Below the pieces are notes generated by a model. That model did not search any database and had not been told where the DNA came from. It saw only the letters and a list, made by a program, of their open reading frames with translations. A program made the translations under genes and the position numbers. DNA of 64,000 nucleotides from positions 2,285,001 to 2,349,000 of the forward strand of contig NC_019974.1 of NCBI RefSeq assembly GCF_000328685.1, given 5' to 3'. Shown one piece after another: positions 30,851-38,244 of this stretch (position 1 is its first letter; the number at the start of each line of letters is the position of its first letter). This DNA comes from Natronococcus occultus SP4. GTDB taxonomy: Archaea > Halobacteriota > Halobacteria > Halobacteriales > Natrialbaceae.

Positions 30851-31990
30851 TCAGATCCGTTCCCAGGCGTCGTCGTCGTCGGGGTCCGGAAGCTCGCCGA
30901 ACGACTCCTCGGGGGGAAGCGCCGTTTCGTCGGCGGGAGCGGGAGTCTCGTCGCCGAGGTCGAGCTCCGGCCAGGCGGTTTTTTCCCACTGACCTCGCTC
31001 GGAGTGGTAGTAGACGACGTTGTCGTCGACGACCGCGAACAGCCCCCGCTGTCGGTCGTGGACGACCCGCGCGTTCGTATCGATCGCGACGTCGACGACG
31101 TCCTCGAGGGTGTCGAGCTCGAGGTGGTAGTCGCCGACCCACATCGGGATCGATCCCTCCGAGATCCACTCGGCATAGCGGTGTCTGTGGAGATCTCGTC
31201 GGGCGGACTCCCGATCGATCGGCTCGCGGCTGTAAACGAACCCGGCGCCGGCAAACGAGAGCAGGCCGATCGCCGCCAGTCCCGCGACGAGCGTGACGTT
31301 CGGCGAGTCTTGCACCGCAACCTGGACGGTGTCGCTGTGCTCGGTCGACGCCGCCAGCTCCTCGTCGTCTTCGAGCCAGTAGGCGCCCTCGGTCAGTTCG
31401 AGCGGACTCGAGACGACCTGTTCGTCGGCGTACGTTCCGGTGTCGTAGACCGCGACGACCTCGAGGACGGTCCGAACGGTTCCGACGCCGTCGAACTCCG
31501 CCTCGATCTCGGCGCGCTCCTCGTAGCGCCCCTCGATATCGACCGTCGTCTCGGATCGAGCGACGCCGTCCTCGACGGTCGCAGCGGTCCGTTCTTCGAG
31601 AACGCTCTCTTCCCAGAAGACCGCCTCGTCGCGGTCGGCCTCGTGGCGGAGCCGCACCTCGTGTTCGACCTCGGCCTCGTCGGACGGGACGTCGGTCTCT
31701 GCGGTGATCGTCAGCTCCGGGGTCTCGGGCAGCGTGTAGACCGGATTGTCCTCGAGTTCGGTTCCGACTTCCCAGGGACCGTCCTCGAGGACGGTCGCGC
31801 TGGTCGTCACCTCGGTCGCGACCGTCTCCCGGTCGACGTCCTCGGTCGTCGTCGACGTTCCCGGCGTCGCCGCAACCCAGCCGGCACTGGCCAGGGCGAG
31901 GACGCCGATCACCGCGAGGAGGATCGCGATCGTTCGGGCGCGGCCGGCGACGGCCAGGTTCACTCGCGGGTTATCGATCACGCGTCCCAC
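30851..31990 (-). CDS. DUF5305-family membrane protein
   Basis: This 379-residue protein has a first span at about residues 20-41 (TIAILLAVIGVLALASAGWV), a beta-rich outer domain of about 200 residues, and a second span near 250-270 (VTLVAGLAAIGLLSFAGAGFVY). A cytoplasmic domain of about 100 residues follows (ARRDLHRHRYAEWISEGSIP). This two-span layout with an extracytoplasmic domain fits the DUF5305 family. It is the last gene in a minus-strand set after the secreted DUF1102-like protein and the signal peptidase, 121 bp behind the latter. Such a protein could anchor or assemble the secreted subunit; that is inference from context. Confidence 0.82.
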   Translation of the reverse strand: MGRVIDNPRVNLAVAGRARTIAILLAVIGVLALASAGWVAATPGTSTTTEDVDRETVATEVTTSATVLEDGPWEVGTELEDNPVYTLPETPELTITAETDVPSDEAEVEHEVRLRHEADRDEAVFWEESVLEERTAATVEDGVARSETTVDIEGRYEERAEIEAEFDGVGTVRTVLEVVAVYDTGTYADEQVVSSPLELTEGAYWLEDDEELAASTEHSDTVQVAVQDSPNVTLVAGLAAIGLLSFAGAGFVYSREPIDRESARRDLHRHRYAEWISEGSIPMWVGDYHLELDTLEDVVDVAIDTNARVVHDRQRGLFAVVDDNVVYYHSERGQWEKTAWPELDLGDETPAPADETALPPEESFGELPDPDDDDAWERI

Positions 31991-32111
31991 CCGCCGACGG
32001 TCGCACCCGCCCGTCCGTCGCTTGAGGACGACCGTTGCCCGAGCGAACAGGTTCGGACAGAGAACTGTTCATACATGCGAGGTGTGGCGCGACCGCTATA
32101 ACGGTAGCGGC

Positions 32112-33272
32112 CTAGCGCCATCGTCGGAGCCGACGCCGTAGCCGCGTCGAGAGCGGAACGTGATCGCCCGGGCTCCGGATCCGGAGATCGCCGCGTCCGA
32201 ACAGGAGCACCACGAGTCCGATCGCCAGGCCGACGACGACCAGATCGACTGCGGCGACCGCGACCAGCGGATGGATCCCGTGCAGTGTGGTAAGCACCGC
32301 GGGCGGCAACACCGCGAGATAGCGGTACTCGCCGACATCGTAGCCGTACTCGCCGGTTTCCGCGGGTGCCGACACCGACAGTGTCGTCTCGGCGTCGCTC
32401 CGCGGGGCGAGGGTCTGTCGGGCGGGATCCGCCTCGAAACGATCGCTCTCGGCCTCGTGGACGACGACCACCGGCGCGTACCCCGCGTTCTCGACCGTCC
32501 GTGACAGCTCGGTCGTCTCGCCCGGCTCCAGCACCTGCGGGTCGTCGGTCGGCGACTCCGTGACGGCGATCTCGTACGCCGTCGTTCCGGTCGGCACGAC
32601 CATCGCCGCCGTCGCCAGCGCGACGAGGACGACCACCACCAGCGCGACCGTCGCCCAGAGGGCATAGACGTCCTCGCGGGAGGTCGATCGGGCCGTCTCG
32701 CGCCGGCCGGCACCCAGTCGATCGAACAGGAGGCCGAGCCCGAACAGCGCGACGCCGAGGCCGACCAGCGCCGCACCGAGACTGTGGCTGTCGGCCGCCG
32801 GCGCGTCGACGACCGACGCGACCGCGCCGTACCCCGACTCGAGGGCGCCCTGAACGCCCATCACCGCGGTGCCGAGGTGGGGAATCGTCACGGGCTCGCC
32901 GTGTCCCTGCCAGGCGACGGCGACGATCTGATCGTCGCTTACGGGGGGCTCGTCGCCGTCCTGATCGGTAAACGGGTTCGCGTCTCCGGCAGTGACGTAC
33001 CCCTCGGGGGTGTCCTCGACGATCCGGTGGGTCGTCAGCTCGCCCCCGTGGAGCTCCTCGGCGTCGAAGACGACGACGTCCCCCTCTTCCGGCGAGCCGG
33101 CGACGGCGCTTGGCACGGCGACGAACCCGTCGCCGGCGTCCATTGTCGGCTCCATGCTCCCCGTCGCGACGTATCCAAGCAGGATCGGCTGCCCGAGAAG
33201 CTGGCCGAGTACGAGTACGGCGACGGCGAGGACGACGACTCCGGCCGTAACACGGGCAGCGACGGATCGCAT
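32112..33272 (-). CDS. Signal peptidase I, archaeal Ser-His type, with large C-terminal membrane and Ig-like extension
   Basis: This 386-residue membrane serine peptidase has an N-terminal span at residues 8-27 and then TGSMEPTMDAGDGF with nucleophile Ser39. His82 lies in TTHRI, and Asp97 lies in GDAN. There is a His at the position where bacterial enzymes have Lys, as in SipW/ER-type enzymes. After the catalytic part (to about 140) come two spans, an extracytoplasmic domain (EPGETTELSRTVENAGYAPV, about 240-320) and one or two more spans. This is clearly longer than a typical archaeal signal peptidase of about 200-300 residues. The start at 33272 puts the first span right at the N-terminus. 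It probably processes the secreted protein encoded just upstream. Confidence 0.86.
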   Translation of the reverse strand: MRSVAARVTAGVVVLAVAVLVLGQLLGQPILLGYVATGSMEPTMDAGDGFVAVPSAVAGSPEEGDVVVFDAEELHGGELTTHRIVEDTPEGYVTAGDANPFTDQDGDEPPVSDDQIVAVAWQGHGEPVTIPHLGTAVMGVQGALESGYGAVASVVDAPAADSHSLGAALVGLGVALFGLGLLFDRLGAGRRETARSTSREDVYALWATVALVVVVLVALATAAMVVPTGTTAYEIAVTESPTDDPQVLEPGETTELSRTVENAGYAPVVVVHEAESDRFEADPARQTLAPRSDAETTLSVSAPAETGEYGYDVGEYRYLAVLPPAVLTTLHGIHPLVAVAAVDLVVVGLAIGLVVLLFGRGDLRIRSPGDHVPLSTRLRRRLRRWR

Positions 33273-33440
33273 TCTTACTCGTTCCTCATCATATCTACCC
33301 CGTCTTGTAACCTGCACTCGGAGTCAGCTCTCCGCTCGGCGGGAGTCGGGCTCGTAGCGTGCGACGACGGCTATCGTCGTCAGCTCTCACCGATCGGATC
33401 GGTAACTGAAACGCCCATCGATCAGTGACGGTTGCGTTCG

Positions 33441-33953
33441 TTACTCGGTACTCTCGTCGCTCTCAGCGATGATGGTAATCTCCCCGGGAATGTCGCCCTC
33501 GTCGTTCTCCCGGAGATCGAAGACGACGTCGAGGGATATTTCGTCCTCCTCATCTGATCCTGTGACATCGAAGGGTCCGTCTCCCTCGAAATACATCGCA
33601 CCTCCGTCCGTATTGAGAATATCTTCCTCAGTTTCTGCCATTTCGATCTCGATCGAGTACGTGACGTCGTCCTCGTCTCCGTTATATCCAATCACGAGCG
33701 CGTCGTTGAACCTCGTCGTTGCGTCCTCGTTGAGGTTATCGAGAGCGAATTCGATGACGTCGTTCTCGTTGTCTCCACTCAACGTCTCGCTCTCGATGCG
33801 TAACTCCAGAAGTGCGTCACCGTCGCCGTCCGTTTCGATGTCTACGTTTCGGTCGGCTTCGACGGTACTGAACGCGCCGGTACCGAGTGCCGCGCCGCCG
33901 CCGGCGACGATCGTTCCAAGTCCGATCAACGTGTTGCGTCGGTTGAGTCTCAT
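33441..33953 (-). CDS. Secreted DUF1102/TasA-like protein with SipW-type signal peptide
   Basis: This 170-residue exported protein has the N-terminus MRLNRRNTLIGLGTIVAGGG followed by AALGTGAFSTVEADR, which fits the GTxAxFS-type signal sequence handled by SipW-like signal peptidases. The mature part is acidic and beta-rich (RNVDIETD, ALLELRIESE, DALVIGYNGDEDDVTYSIEIE), like DUF1102, camelysin and TasA-type subunits. The base composition is lower in GC than its neighbours (28 of 60 in 33601-33660), a sign of transfer or relaxed codon use. The signal peptidase gene follows 168 bp later. Filament formation is inferred, not shown. Confidence 0.82.
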   Translation of the reverse strand: MRLNRRNTLIGLGTIVAGGGAALGTGAFSTVEADRNVDIETDGDGDALLELRIESETLSGDNENDVIEFALDNLNEDATTRFNDALVIGYNGDEDDVTYSIEIEMAETEEDILNTDGGAMYFEGDGPFDVTGSDEEDEISLDVVFDLRENDEGDIPGEITIIAESDESTE

Positions 33954-34217
33954 AGTGTGGTCACCTCGTGCCGACCGTCGACCCAGAGCGTCGACGTGCC
34001 CGCAGCCGATTAGGTGTTCGATACGTCTCGTCCCGGACCCTTTGTATTGGCGTTCCAGAAAGTCGTATTGGTGAATAATACTGTTTTCAAGGTCGGCCAG
34101 AACGGTGCAGCGCCGGTCTTCTCTCCCGTTCTCGTTTCCGAACGAAAATTATGCGAACCGGTTGGCCAGTAGGCTTATCTATCGGTGGTCGGTACAGTAC
34201 CCCGTACTGACGTTCTA

Positions 34218-34784
34218 ATGGCGATGGACACGGCAGCGGGGGAGAGGGGAACCGACGCCGACGAACGGACCCCGGATCGCGGGGAGATCTTCGATCTGCT
34301 TGCGAACAGTCGGCGACGGTACGCGATCCACTACTGTAAACGCGAGGACGGTCCCGTCGAGCTCGGCGACCTCGCCGAACACGTCGCCGCCTGGGAGCTG
34401 GACAAGGAGGTTCCGGAGGTTACCTCGGCGGAGCGAAAGCGAGTCTACACGTCCCTCCAGCAAACCCACCTGCCGACCCTCGAGCAGGCCGAGATGGTCG
34501 TCTTTGACAACGGGACGATCGAACTCACCGACAGCGCGTCCGAGCTTGACGTCTACCTCGATATCGTCCCGAGCGACAGTATTCCGTGGGGACTGTACTA
34601 CCTCGGATTATCGGTGCTTGCCGGAATCGTCATGCTCGGTCTGTGGCTCGGCGTCGTCCCGACCGGGACCATCCCGCCACTGGGGTGGACGACGCTCGTG
34701 GTCGCGTCGTTCGTCGTGTCGTCGACCGTCCACGTCGTCCAGAACCGACGAATGCGACTGGGAGCGATGGAGCGTCCACCCTGA
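34218..34784 (+). CDS. Winged-helix protein with two membrane spans (DUF7344-like)
   Basis: This is a 188-residue protein. A winged-helix part, RGEIFDLLANSRRRYAIHYCK with GPVELGDLAEHVAAWE and KRVYTSLQQTHLPTLEQAEMVVFD, is the haloarchaeal DUF7344 pattern. Two spans follow at about 128-148 (WGLYYLGLSVLAGIVMLGLWL) and 156-175 (GWTTLVVASFVVSSTVHVVQ). It is thus a membrane-tethered DNA-binding protein. The ATG at 34218 is chosen over the GTG at 34185. It is divergent from the DUF1102-like gene with about 264 bp between, and the next exported-protein gene starts 2 bp after its stop. It probably controls this surface-protein locus. Confidence 0.82.
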   Translation: MAMDTAAGERGTDADERTPDRGEIFDLLANSRRRYAIHYCKREDGPVELGDLAEHVAAWELDKEVPEVTSAERKRVYTSLQQTHLPTLEQAEMVVFDNGTIELTDSASELDVYLDIVPSDSIPWGLYYLGLSVLAGIVMLGLWLGVVPTGTIPPLGWTTLVVASFVVSSTVHVVQNRRMRLGAMERPP

Positions 34785-34785
34785 G

Positions 34786-36036
34786 ATGCGTGCGACGAAC
34801 GCGATTGCGATCGTGTGTCTCGTCCTCGGCGTCGCGCTACTGGCCGGGCCGACGTTCGGATTCGTCTCCATCTCGGCGGATCGCGGCGTTTCGATCGGCA
34901 CCGCCGACGACGGGTCGGGATACCTTGGTGTCGAGGCGGTCGATACCGTGGTCGACGATCGGAACGACGCCGAGGACGTCGTCGTGGTGACGAACAACGC
35001 CGACGAGACGCTGGCGATCGACGCCGACGCGACGATCGACGGTCCGGGTCTCGAGGCGGCGAGCGGGTTCGATCGGGAGCTCGGTCCGGGCGACACGACG
35101 GCGGTTGCGGTGACCTGTGAGCCGGGGACCGGAAGCGGTGAGACGGACCTCGAGGTCACGGTCGAGTCCGCCAGCGGGGACGGGATCTCGATCGAGGGGC
35201 TAGAGCGATCGTTCACGATCGAGCGCGACTGTCCCGGCCGCCCCGGTCCGGATCCGCCCGGCGAAGCCGATCCCGGAACCGGGTTCGACTCGGTTTCCGT
35301 CGACGACGTCTCCGGGTTCGTGAGTCCGAGCGAGGAACGCCAGCAGTTCCGGTTCACGCTCGCCGAGAACCGAGACCCCCACGAGGAGATCGAGATCGAC
35401 CTGCGCGATCCACACGGGGAGGGCGTCGACTACACCGAGACGTTCTGGGACGACGACACACTCGAGATCGTCGACGGAGCGGGCGAGATCTGGGGAGACG
35501 ACGGGACGATCGTCTACCAGGTCGCCCCGCAGGACGGTCACGACGATGAGATCGTCGTCGAGGCCGGCGGCTACGCGACCGACGGCGACGGCGGCCCATA
35601 CGAGGTGTCGTTCACGCGGTCGGAAACCGGCGAGGTCGGGACGGCGCCGTTCGAGATCGACGGCACGGGCGCCGGATCGGACCCGTTCGTCGGAGTCGGC
35701 GCCGACGACGTCCGTTCCGGCGACGGCCGTCAGACGTTCAGTTTCACCCCCACCGACGGGCTCGAGCCGTGGGAAGACGAGGTCCGAATCGATCTGGGTG
35801 ACGTGGACGGACTCGCATACGACTGGGACGTCGTCCTCGAGGAGGGGCCAGGGAACGATGGGAACGTCTGGCGAAACGAGGACGAACTCGTCTACCAGGT
35901 CAACGACAGGGGGACCGGCGGCGAGAAGATCGTCGTCTCGATCGGCGTCGAAGCGACGGCCCCCGGTCCCGGCGAGGTATCGTTCACACGGACTGACACG
36001 GGAGAGACGGCAGTAGAGTCGTTCGAAATCGAGTAG
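34786..36036 (+). CDS. Exported beta-rich protein with two tandem ~110-residue repeats
   Basis: This 416-residue protein has a signal sequence (MRATNAIAIVCLVLGVALLAGP) and then FVSISADRGVSIGTADD, much like the mature start of DUF1102/TasA-like proteins. The first domain, to about residue 145, is beta-rich. After a Pro-rich linker (PGRPGPDPPGEADPG) come two related segments, about 165-290 and 300-416. Each ends in a strand such as EVSFTRSETGEVGTAPFEID or EVSFTRTDTGETAVESFEIE, with FRFTL or FSFTP and IEIDLRD or VRIDLGD at matching places. It looks like a surface or filament-associated protein. No membrane anchor is seen at the C-terminus. Confidence 0.78.
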   Translation: MRATNAIAIVCLVLGVALLAGPTFGFVSISADRGVSIGTADDGSGYLGVEAVDTVVDDRNDAEDVVVVTNNADETLAIDADATIDGPGLEAASGFDRELGPGDTTAVAVTCEPGTGSGETDLEVTVESASGDGISIEGLERSFTIERDCPGRPGPDPPGEADPGTGFDSVSVDDVSGFVSPSEERQQFRFTLAENRDPHEEIEIDLRDPHGEGVDYTETFWDDDTLEIVDGAGEIWGDDGTIVYQVAPQDGHDDEIVVEAGGYATDGDGGPYEVSFTRSETGEVGTAPFEIDGTGAGSDPFVGVGADDVRSGDGRQTFSFTPTDGLEPWEDEVRIDLGDVDGLAYDWDVVLEEGPGNDGNVWRNEDELVYQVNDRGTGGEKIVVSIGVEATAPGPGEVSFTRTDTGETAVESFEIE

Positions 36037-36095: not shown

Positions 36096-36431
36096 ATGTC
36101 GACCGAATCGATTAGCGACCGACGCGAGCACATCCGCTCGGTCAGCGTGACGGCGCTGTCGGCGCTGCTCGGCGTCGGCGCGGCGTTCGCCACGCTGGCG
36201 CTGGCCGGCGACGTCTCGTCCGTCGAGGCCGCCGAGGCCGCCGCGACCGACACACGGGGGCTGTTGCTCGTCCTGGGGGCGGTTCTCGTCCAGTTCGTCC
36301 TCTATGACTTCACGGACATCTACGGCGAGGACGAGTTCGGCGTGAAACACTACCTGTTTATCACGTTCATGACGTTCTCGTTCTGGTTCGTCGTCCTCGG
36401 GATCCTCCTCACGACGGAGGCAATGGGTTGA
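36096..36431 (+). CDS. EMC6-like membrane protein
   Basis: This is a 111-residue protein with a charged N-terminus and three spans: about 17-37 (SVTALSALLGVGAAFATLALA), 53-70 (RGLLLVLGAVLVQFVLYDF) and 86-106 (LFITFMTFSFWFVVLGILL). The pattern fits the archaeal EMC6-like family linked to membrane-protein insertion. Its stop is 1 bp before the ABCE1/RLI start, so the two are translationally coupled; the pairing of a membrane-insertion-like factor with ribosome recycling is notable. Its exact function in archaea is not established. Confidence 0.75.
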   Translation: MSTESISDRREHIRSVSVTALSALLGVGAAFATLALAGDVSSVEAAEAAATDTRGLLLVLGAVLVQFVLYDFTDIYGEDEFGVKHYLFITFMTFSFWFVVLGILLTTEAMG

Positions 36432-36432
36432 G

Positions 36433-38244
36433 ATGGCCGACGACAGCATCGCCGTCGTAGACCTGGATCGGTGCCAGCCCGACCGGTGTAGCTACGAGTG
36501 CAAGAACTACTGCCCGCCCAACCGAACCGGCAAGGAGTGTATTACGCTTCGGGGCGAGGAGGCCGACCAGGGCCAGCCCGACCAGATCCACATCTCCGAG
36601 GAAATCTGTCTGGGCGAAACCTGTGGCATCTGCGTCGAGAAGTGTCCGTTCGACGCAATCGAGATCATCAACCTGCCCCAGGAACTCCAGGACAACCCCG
36701 TCCACCGCTACGGCGAGAACGCCTTCTCGCTGTACGGCTTGCCGGCACCCCAGGAGGGGAAGGTGACGGGGATCCTCGGGCCGAACGGGATCGGGAAAAC
36801 CACCGCCGTTCGCATCCTCGAGGGCGAACTCCAGCCCAATCTCGGCCGCGACGAGACCGTCGACTGGGACGACGTCCTCGAGGCCTACCGCGGGACCGAA
36901 CTGCAGGACTACATCGCCGACGTCCGCGACGGCGAGGTTACCGTCGCCCGCAAACCCCAGTACGTCGACCAGATCCCCGAGAGCTTCGACGGCAACACCC
37001 GCGAGCTGCTCGAGCGGACCGACGAACGGGGGGCGCTGGATTCGCTGGTCGAGCGCCTCGAGATCGGGCCCGTGATGGACCAGGCGATCGAAGATCTCTC
37101 GGGTGGAGAGCTTCAGCGGGTCGCGCTCGCGGCGACGCTCGCACGGGATACGGATTTCTACTTCCTCGACGAGGTGACGCCCTATCTCGACATCGGCCAA
37201 CGCGTCACCGCAGCGCGGCTGATCCGCGAACTCGCCGAGGAGGAGAACCGATCGATGCTGGTCGTCGAGCACGACCTGGCCATCCTGGACCTGCTCGCCG
37301 ACACGCTCCACGTCGCATACGGTGAGCCCGGTGCCTACGGTGTCATCACCTCGCCGAAGTCGGTCCGAAACGGGATCAACGAGTATCTCTCGGGCTATCT
37401 CGACAACGAGAACATGCGGATCCGACAGGACCCCATCGAGTTCGAGGAACACGCCCCACGGACCGCGACCCACGGCGACGTGCTGGTCGACTACCCCGAC
37501 CTCACGAAGAGCTACGGCGACGGCGAGTTCACCCTCGAGGTCAAGGGCGGGGAGATCCACCGCAACGAGGTGCTCGGTATCGTCGGTCCCAACGGGATCG
37601 GGAAGTCGACGTTCGCGAAGCTGCTGACGGGGAACCTCGGGCCGACCGCAGGCGACGCCGACCTCGATCTCGACATCTCCTACAAACCCCAGTACGTCAC
37701 CATCGACCAGCACATGCGGGTCGACGCCTTCCTCTCTTCCATTACGGACCAGTTCGGGTCCTCGTACTGGAACACCGAGATCGCCCAGCCACTACAGTTA
37801 GAGCGCATCATGGAACAGAACCTCTCGGATCTCTCCGGCGGTGAGCGCCAGCGGGTCGCCATCGCGGCCTGTCTCTCCGATTCGGCGGATCTGTACCTGC
37901 TCGACGAACCCTCCGCTCACCTCGACGTCGAACAGCGGGTCCAGGCCACGAGCGCGATCCGGCGCTACGCCGAACAGCAGGACGCCACCGTGATGGTCAT
38001 CGACCACGACATCTACACGATCGACCTGCTGGCAGATCGCCTGATGGTCTTCGAGGGCGAGCCCGCGGTAGCGGGCCACGCCAGCAAACCCCAGCCGATG
38101 CGGGAGGGGATGAACGAGTTCCTCTCGAACCTCGAGATCACGTTCCGGCGGGACGAGCGCACCTCGCGTCCACGGATTAACAAGCCGGAGTCGCAGCTGG
38201 ACCGCGAGCAAAAACGGGAAGGAGAGTACTACTACTCGCCGTAG
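36433..38244 (+). CDS. rli1: Ribosome-recycling ATPase RLI/ABCE1
   Basis: This 603-residue cytoplasmic ABC protein splits ribosomes after termination together with aRF1/Pelota. The N-terminus carries the Fe-S region: CQPDRCSYECKNYCPPN and later ETCGICVEKCP supply eight Cys for two 4Fe-4S clusters. Two ABC domains follow, with P-loops GPNGIGKTT (residue ~116) and GPNGIGKST (~385) and signatures LSGGELQRV and LSGGERQRV. The length is normal. It is coupled to the EMC6-like gene upstream by a 1-bp gap. Confidence 0.97.
   Translation: MADDSIAVVDLDRCQPDRCSYECKNYCPPNRTGKECITLRGEEADQGQPDQIHISEEICLGETCGICVEKCPFDAIEIINLPQELQDNPVHRYGENAFSLYGLPAPQEGKVTGILGPNGIGKTTAVRILEGELQPNLGRDETVDWDDVLEAYRGTELQDYIADVRDGEVTVARKPQYVDQIPESFDGNTRELLERTDERGALDSLVERLEIGPVMDQAIEDLSGGELQRVALAATLARDTDFYFLDEVTPYLDIGQRVTAARLIRELAEEENRSMLVVEHDLAILDLLADTLHVAYGEPGAYGVITSPKSVRNGINEYLSGYLDNENMRIRQDPIEFEEHAPRTATHGDVLVDYPDLTKSYGDGEFTLEVKGGEIHRNEVLGIVGPNGIGKSTFAKLLTGNLGPTAGDADLDLDISYKPQYVTIDQHMRVDAFLSSITDQFGSSYWNTEIAQPLQLERIMEQNLSDLSGGERQRVAIAACLSDSADLYLLDEPSAHLDVEQRVQATSAIRRYAEQQDATVMVIDHDIYTIDLLADRLMVFEGEPAVAGHASKPQPMREGMNEFLSNLEITFRRDERTSRPRINKPESQLDREQKREGEYYYSP

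Follow-up and report, generated by a model that had tools for sequence, protein, structure and literature searches.

A Locus of Natronococcus occultus SP4 That Very Probably Encodes a Tafi-Type Haloarchaeal Pilus

We have analyzed a 64,000-nucleotide stretch of the Natronococcus occultus SP4 genome (NC_019974.1; hereafter the window), in which five genes at positions 30851–36036 very probably encode a haloarchaeal pilus of the Tafi type. Three genes on the minus strand encode a small exported protein (the pilin), a signal peptidase (SPase), and a DUF5305 membrane protein, and two divergent genes on the plus strand encode a membrane-tethered winged-helix regulator (wHTH) and a TafC-like exported protein (Table 1). 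The assignment is based on the homology of the pilin to a pilin of solved structure, the conserved gene order, a match in fold, and a strand motif shared by the two exported proteins. The locus is a Tafi member by pilin homology and synteny, and not by the equivalog cut-offs of NCBIfam, and its kind is already known; the names Taf and Tafi are used here as they appear in NCBIfam and in the title of one Protein Data Bank (PDB) entry only. A preliminary description of this DNA had proposed a filament locus resembling TasA and AbpA. The proposed filament kinship was borne out by the relationship of the pilin to the solved Tafi pilin, and AbpA is the second structural match; TasA itself, however, is not the nearest relative of this protein, which is closest to the Tafi/Taf pilus.

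The family profile of the pilin matched a single solved structure, PDB 9p0a, with an E value of 1.3e-44, and the window pilin as a single sequence matched the same entry with an E value of 2.3e-15 over residues 1–65. The title of 9p0a in the structure library is ‘Structure of Natrinema sp. J7-2 Tafi pilus’ (released 2025-07-23). The part of the 9p0a sequence given in the search output (190 residues) has 100% identity with a protein from Natrinema gari (L119:5860-6537), whose gene occupies the syntenic position of the window pilin. It is followed by the genes for a TafF-like protein, the SPase, and the DUF5305 protein, and it faces away from a wHTH-TafC-like pair located ~3.4 kb distant. The window thus shares with the Natrinema system a homologous pilin at the same gene position, the SPase-DUF5305 pair, and the divergent wHTH-TafC unit as found in N. 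gari. It differs in having no TafF-like gene and in the C-terminus of the TafC-like protein, which is a tandem immunoglobulin (Ig)-like module in the window and a low-complexity repeat tail in the Natrinema proteins.

The AlphaFold2 (AF2) model of the pilin, built from 46 sequences, is an all-beta domain with a mean predicted local distance difference test (pLDDT) score of 75.8, and the protein carries an export signal, in agreement with the small secreted beta-rich protein described previously. The best match of this model in VIA-align was 9p0a (Z 7.6, 114 residues, 3.1 Å), followed by the bundling pilus subunit AbpA from Pyrobaculum (7ueg; Z 7.2, 105 residues, 3.0 Å, 6% identity). The structure prediction suggested as a check therefore returned two donor-strand filaments as its top two matches. 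Lower matches were PapD-like Ig folds with Z values of 6.2 and below, and FimA with a Z of 5.4; the value for AbpA exceeds those of unrelated entries by only 1. The alignments to 9p0a and 7ueg both begin at residue 44–45, and the N-terminal residues 28–43 fall outside of them. The relationship to 9p0a is secure because the sequence match backs a Z value that alone would be weak, while the likeness to AbpA is only suggestive. The suggested profile search for kinship with TasA, AbpA, or camelysin gave a mixed outcome, with homology to 9p0a and no Pfam match to TasA/camelysin (Peptidase_M73) for either the pilin or the 46 sequences of its alignment. TasA entries were not among the structures listed by Foldseek and VIA-align, which weighs neither way on the TasA jelly-roll fold. 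No relative was found when viral contigs were scanned with the pilin.

The pilin is composed of a signal of the twin-arginine (Tat) type with an RR pair, a predicted mature start at A27/F28, a strand at approximately residues 28–41, and an Ig-like domain at residues 44–166. Residues 28–40 form an almost perfectly alternating strand that starts with A-F-x-x-V. Positions 31, 33, 37, and 39 are hydrophobic in 46 of the 46 aligned sequences and R35 is invariant, whereas positions 32, 34, 36, 38, and 40 are hydrophobic in only 0–7%. Judged from this pattern, the stretch following A27-F28 would be an amphipathic strand that fits an N-terminal donor strand. In TasA, the donor strand comprises residues 28–38, with F29 and I32 buried in the neighboring subunits, and TapA shares the N-terminal motif of TasA (PMC9674648). 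The spacing of F28 and V31 in the pilin is the same as that of F29 and I32 in TasA. The 9p0a chain contains 188 of 215 residues in the structure library, which would agree with a mature protein that begins at F28.

A strict DNA motif for G-x-G-A-F-x-x-V was found at three places in the 4.3-Mb genome, compared with one place for a reversed control, and two of the three are the pilin genes of two Taf-type loci. Similarly, two of the three archaeal SPase matches in the genome reside within these loci. The distribution of motif and protease supports a dedicated substrate-protease pair, as far as can be read from the sequence. The SPase, described earlier as an archaeal signal peptidase I, scores above the cut-off of 51.85 bits for TIGR02228 and matches the SipW model with 35 bits. 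Ser39 and His82 are invariant in an alignment of 13 relatives; a Ser-His pair is the catalytic pair of signal peptidases of the endoplasmic reticulum (ER)/SipW type. The C-terminal extension of the enzyme consists of a transmembrane (TM) segment, an Ig-like domain, and a second TM segment, and hydrophobic segments were identified at residues 1–36, 163–187, 199–232, and 329–365. We make no claim of homology between the SPase and the TafF-like proteins: the latter were among the matches of an early iterated SPase profile, but with clean profiles the Ig-like domain of the SPase is only weakly similar to the CARDB repeats of TafF (domain E value of 5e-4 at best).

The TafC-like protein has a signal at residues 1–25, the donor-strand motif from F26, an N-terminal beta domain to residue ~150 with a conserved pair of cysteines (C111 and C149), and two Ig-like repeats. 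Its mature start, FVSISADRGVSI, has the same alternation as the pilin strand. The resemblance claimed previously for the two mature starts holds at the motif level: AFSTVEADR and GFVSISADR sit at an equal point past the hydrophobic segment, and both proteins match the NCBIfam TafC model (the pilin weakly, the TafC-like protein over residues 8–150 with 39.4 bits). It does not extend further, since a wider pairwise alignment scored 73, within the range of shuffled sequences (45 ± 8, maximum 92). The final 250 residues of the TafC-like protein consist of a unit that occurs twice (local alignment score of 165 versus 39 ± 7 for shuffled sequences), as had been recognized in the initial reading. The AF2 model of residues 303–416 matches LrpA, a shaft pilin of the Cna-B type (Z 10.2, 110 residues, 2.7 Å), and also Gram-positive adhesins. 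Among relatives, the N-terminal part is kept and the remainder is swapped for a bactofilin-like domain (6 of 34), a laminin-G domain (one), or an FG-GAP domain (one); within the genus, the proteins differ in their heads, some of which are a single Ig repeat or a pair of them. The possibility that this protein is simply another shaft subunit was rejected, because only its N-terminal ~150 residues are conserved and the rest varies with the species. The simplest reading is that it is probably a minor subunit or adhesin with interchangeable heads on a common plug.

The conservation of the gene order was assessed using loci pulled from public genomes with an SPase alignment, 66 of which had enough flanking sequence. 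The pilin family was found near the SPase in 65 of these loci, DUF5305 in 64, a TafC-like protein in 63, the wHTH in 62, and a TafF-like protein in 46. All four of the main partners are within 7.5 kb in 61 of the 66, and this agrees with the coherent neighborhood that had been proposed, which is not a chance arrangement. Because the loci were chosen by the SPase, these counts are silent on the frequency of the other genes in its absence. The loci span Natrialbaceae, Haloferacaceae, Haloarculaceae, Halococcaceae, and other families, and the neighborhood survey proposed as a check thus found the gene order to be conserved across many haloarchaeal families. When 145 genomes of the order were searched with the pilin instead, 87 gave matches, and among 42 neighborhoods picked mainly by pilin score (including the window and the second locus of this genome), 36 contain DUF5305 and 35 contain the wHTH. 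The SPases from the window and N. gari fall in one supported clade of 32 SPases; the nearest to the window enzyme are from Natronococcus (80% identity) and form a five-member clade with it (support 100/100).

NCBIfam names four families of Taf fimbriae: TafA (NF052520), TafC (NF052521), TafE (NF052522), and TafF (NF052523). The window shares with these systems a TafE-like pilin, a TafC-like protein, the wHTH, DUF5305, and the SPase, and differs in lacking TafA and TafF and in scoring below the curated cut-offs. A canonical locus (L065) contains TafA (226 bits), TafC (414 bits), and TafE (210 bits), together with the wHTH, DUF5305, the SPase, and a membrane protein of ~400 amino acids. Its gene order is different, with TafA-wHTH-TafC-DUF5305-SPase on one strand and TafE plus the ~400-residue membrane protein divergent. 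The latter, at L065:9495-10703 directly after TafE, has C-terminal hydrophobic segments and is a likely candidate for a TafF counterpart.

A number of results count against the assignment to the Tafi type. The pilin scores 108.9 bits against the TafE cut-off of 155, and the TafC-like protein reaches its 39.4 bits, against a TafC cut-off of 410, with the N-terminal 150 residues only. The single-sequence match to 9p0a covers mostly the signal and strand; beyond residue 65, the link depends on the family profile together with a model whose N-terminal confidence is low (pLDDT of 45–65 over residues 1–50). A Z value below 8 can mean a common-fold match, and Foldseek alone gave the pilin no E value below 0.02. 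Most relatives have a TafF-like CARDB protein of ~380 amino acids where the window has an empty gap of 168 bases, and the genome contains only partial CARDB matches; with its presence in 46 of 66 loci, this protein was taken as an accessory component and not a defining one. The gene of the solved pilin (L119), however, also misses the TafE cut-off, at 77.1 bits.

Comparisons with other donor-strand systems are less close. AbpA has an Ig-like subunit fold with the N-terminal strand outside the aligned globular domain, as does the pilin, but the identity over the aligned part is as given above and no sequence match was found. The TasA-TapA-SipW system of Bacillus also has a dedicated ER/SipW-type signal peptidase, an A-F-x-x-[IV] mature start with F and a hydrophobic residue at +3, and a second protein with the same donor-strand motif; it differs from the window in the Peptidase_M73 family of TasA, which the pilin does not match, and in the Ig-like extension of the window SPase. 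To our knowledge, the archaeal DUF5305 protein and membrane wHTH have no counterpart in the Bacillus system. The threads of Sulfolobus (Saci_0406, PDB 7pnb; Foldseek E 0.18) and the type 1 pilus subunit FimA are donor-strand Ig-like fibers with a weak fold match to the pilin, but there are no chaperone-usher genes in the locus and no sequence relation was found.

In the mechanism that we propose, the pilin would be exported through its Tat-type signal and cut by the neighboring SPase at the TG-A-F boundary. The freed strand, from F28 to ~T41, would then occupy the Ig-like groove of the following subunit, and the pilin would polymerize in the organism as a thin donor-strand-complemented fiber. 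The TafC-like protein, which starts with the shared strand but bears two Ig-like modules rather than a plain shaft build, is most likely an adhesin that caps one end, with the outer tip as the probable site. The DUF5305 protein and the Ig-extended SPase would remain in the membrane, probably forming an assembly or anchoring platform, and the membrane wHTH would control expression from the divergent intergenic region. In a tentative and rather unlikely extension of this scheme, the window encodes a minimal Tafi pilus that has lost the usual membrane-anchored TafF-like subunit. The weakly CARDB-like Ig domain of the SPase would then grip the pilin directly after cleavage or tether the fiber, so that one protein would combine protease and platform, while TafC-like tips would swap heads between species.

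The small exported protein could instead be a minor adapter, as the NCBIfam name implies, with the shaft encoded elsewhere, for example by the pilin-like gene of the second locus. Its best model is indeed the TafE ‘fimbrial adapter’, canonical loci such as L065 hold a separate TafA, and the genome has this second pilin-like gene at C1:608.5 kb. The subunit that was solved as a pilus, however, itself scores best against TafE, at only 77 bits, and no other small pilin-type gene was found in the locus that encodes it. There is no TafA above the cut-off of 190 bits in the genome (the best match, 49.7 bits, covers the signal region only), and the second locus has an SPase, DUF5305, and wHTH of its own, so that we consider the adapter reading improbable. 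It is more improbable still that the locus encodes surface proteins, secreted or attached to the membrane, that share an export signal and form no fiber, such as an S-layer decoration or an extracellular matrix protein. Haloarchaea do export many multicopy proteins that combine similar signals with other domains, and some of these proteins have no SPase gene next to them (L074, L081, L082), but the pilin is directly homologous to, and syntenic with, a pilus subunit of solved structure, and the amphipathic strand is kept in all of the relatives.

Within the Tafi pilus model, a possible if somewhat doubtful alternative is that the TafC-like protein is not a tip adhesin but a base initiator similar to TapA, which would sit at the cell surface and supply the first donor strand there. 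The TafC-like protein and the pilin share the donor-strand motif, as TapA does with TasA (PMC9674648). A hydrophobicity scan of the TafC-like protein, however, found no C-terminal membrane segment, and its C-terminal modules vary by species among Ig repeats, bactofilin-like, LamG, and FG-GAP domains, as expected of an exposed binding head.

The Tafi assignment ties a solved haloarchaeal pilus to a gene set that is both widespread and conserved. In this set, the presumed substrate has a SipW-like protease as its neighbor, as in Bacillus biofilms. The SPase with its Ig extension, the DUF5305 protein, the wHTH, and the variable-headed TafC-like protein are candidates for the processing, assembly, and aiming of an archaeal donor-strand pilus, and the uncharacterized families DUF5305 and DUF7344 gain a testable context.

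The features of the locus are collected in Table 1. All five genes proposed earlier are present, with slight corrections of the start sites: the SPase starts at the ATG at 33272 instead of the GTG at 33317 that had been assigned mechanically, and the start of the TafC-like protein is the ATG at 34786, directly past the wHTH stop. The Pfam matches uphold the identification of the DUF5305 membrane protein and, with a hydrophobic stretch at residues 122–152, that of the membrane-tethered wHTH.

Table 1. Features of the candidate Tafi-type pilus locus (positions in the window)
Feature	Position	Strand	Size or basis
DUF5305 membrane protein	30851..31990	-	379 aa; PF17231 E 8.7e-44 (Pfam)
ER/SipW-type signal peptidase I (SPase)	32112..33272	-	TIGR02228 52.4 bits
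Gap, TafF-like gene absent	33273..33440		168 bases between SPase and pilin genes
Pilin, TafE-like	33441..33953	-	170 aa; PDB 9p0a homology
Predicted donor strand FSTVEADRNVDIET of pilin, residues 28-41	33831..33872	-	Alternation in 46 relatives
Divergent intergenic region separating two transcription units	33954..34217		Gene coordinates
DUF7344 membrane-tethered winged-helix regulator (wHTH)	34218..34784	+	188 aa; PF24035 E 1.3e-28
TafC-like exported protein, probable minor subunit/adhesin	34786..36036	+	416 aa; NCBIfam TafC 39.4 bits
Ig-like repeat 1 of TafC-like protein	35278..35664	+	Internal alignment, AF2 strands
Ig-like repeat 2 of TafC-like protein	35680..36033	+	Internal alignment, AF2 strands, Z 10.2 to LrpA

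The locus is adjoined by the gene for an archaeal EMC6 homologue (PF19094) at 36096–36431, followed by an ABCE1/RLI-like ATPase at 36433–38244; these are ordinary housekeeping genes and so mark the end of the locus. From the TM estimate, the DUF5305 protein has TM segments at residues ~12–43 and ~231–253, an exported middle, and a conserved cytoplasmic tail, and it is a putative assembly or anchor partner. A third DUF5305 gene (L177:7742-8854, G000:C1 ~3.485 Mb) lies beside glycosyltransferase-like and sugar-nucleotide genes, with neither an SPase nor a pilin; the function of DUF5305 may not be confined to pili.

The TafF-like gene is also absent from L093–L096, L134, and L152. It was probably lost once in a Natronococcus subclade, since the absence is common to L093–L096 and not seen in N. 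pandeyae (L126), with separate losses in L134 and L152. TafF-like proteins have a pilin-like N-terminal part, CARDB domains, and a hydrophobic C-terminus, and on account of this architecture they may serve as a membrane-bound base.

The second, diverged Taf-type locus of the genome is at C1:608–613 kb (G000:C1:602000-615500; L013:6222-11262) and contains a pilin-like protein of 206 amino acids, DUF5305, an SPase, the wHTH, and a short TafC-like protein. Its SPase falls in a different clade from that of the window, and both types of Taf locus are present in several Natrialbaceae.

Exported proteins that share the Tat/AFxxV start, some with long and differing C-terminal parts, form clusters in L081, L082, L074, and L056; some of these clusters have no adjacent signal peptidase, and one genome (G007) has 13 matches. 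A contig labeled ‘Mollicutes bacterium’ (L166, PULR01000059.1) holds a haloarchaeal Taf locus that groups with Natronomonas, and it is probably from a mis-binned or mislabeled metagenome-assembled genome.

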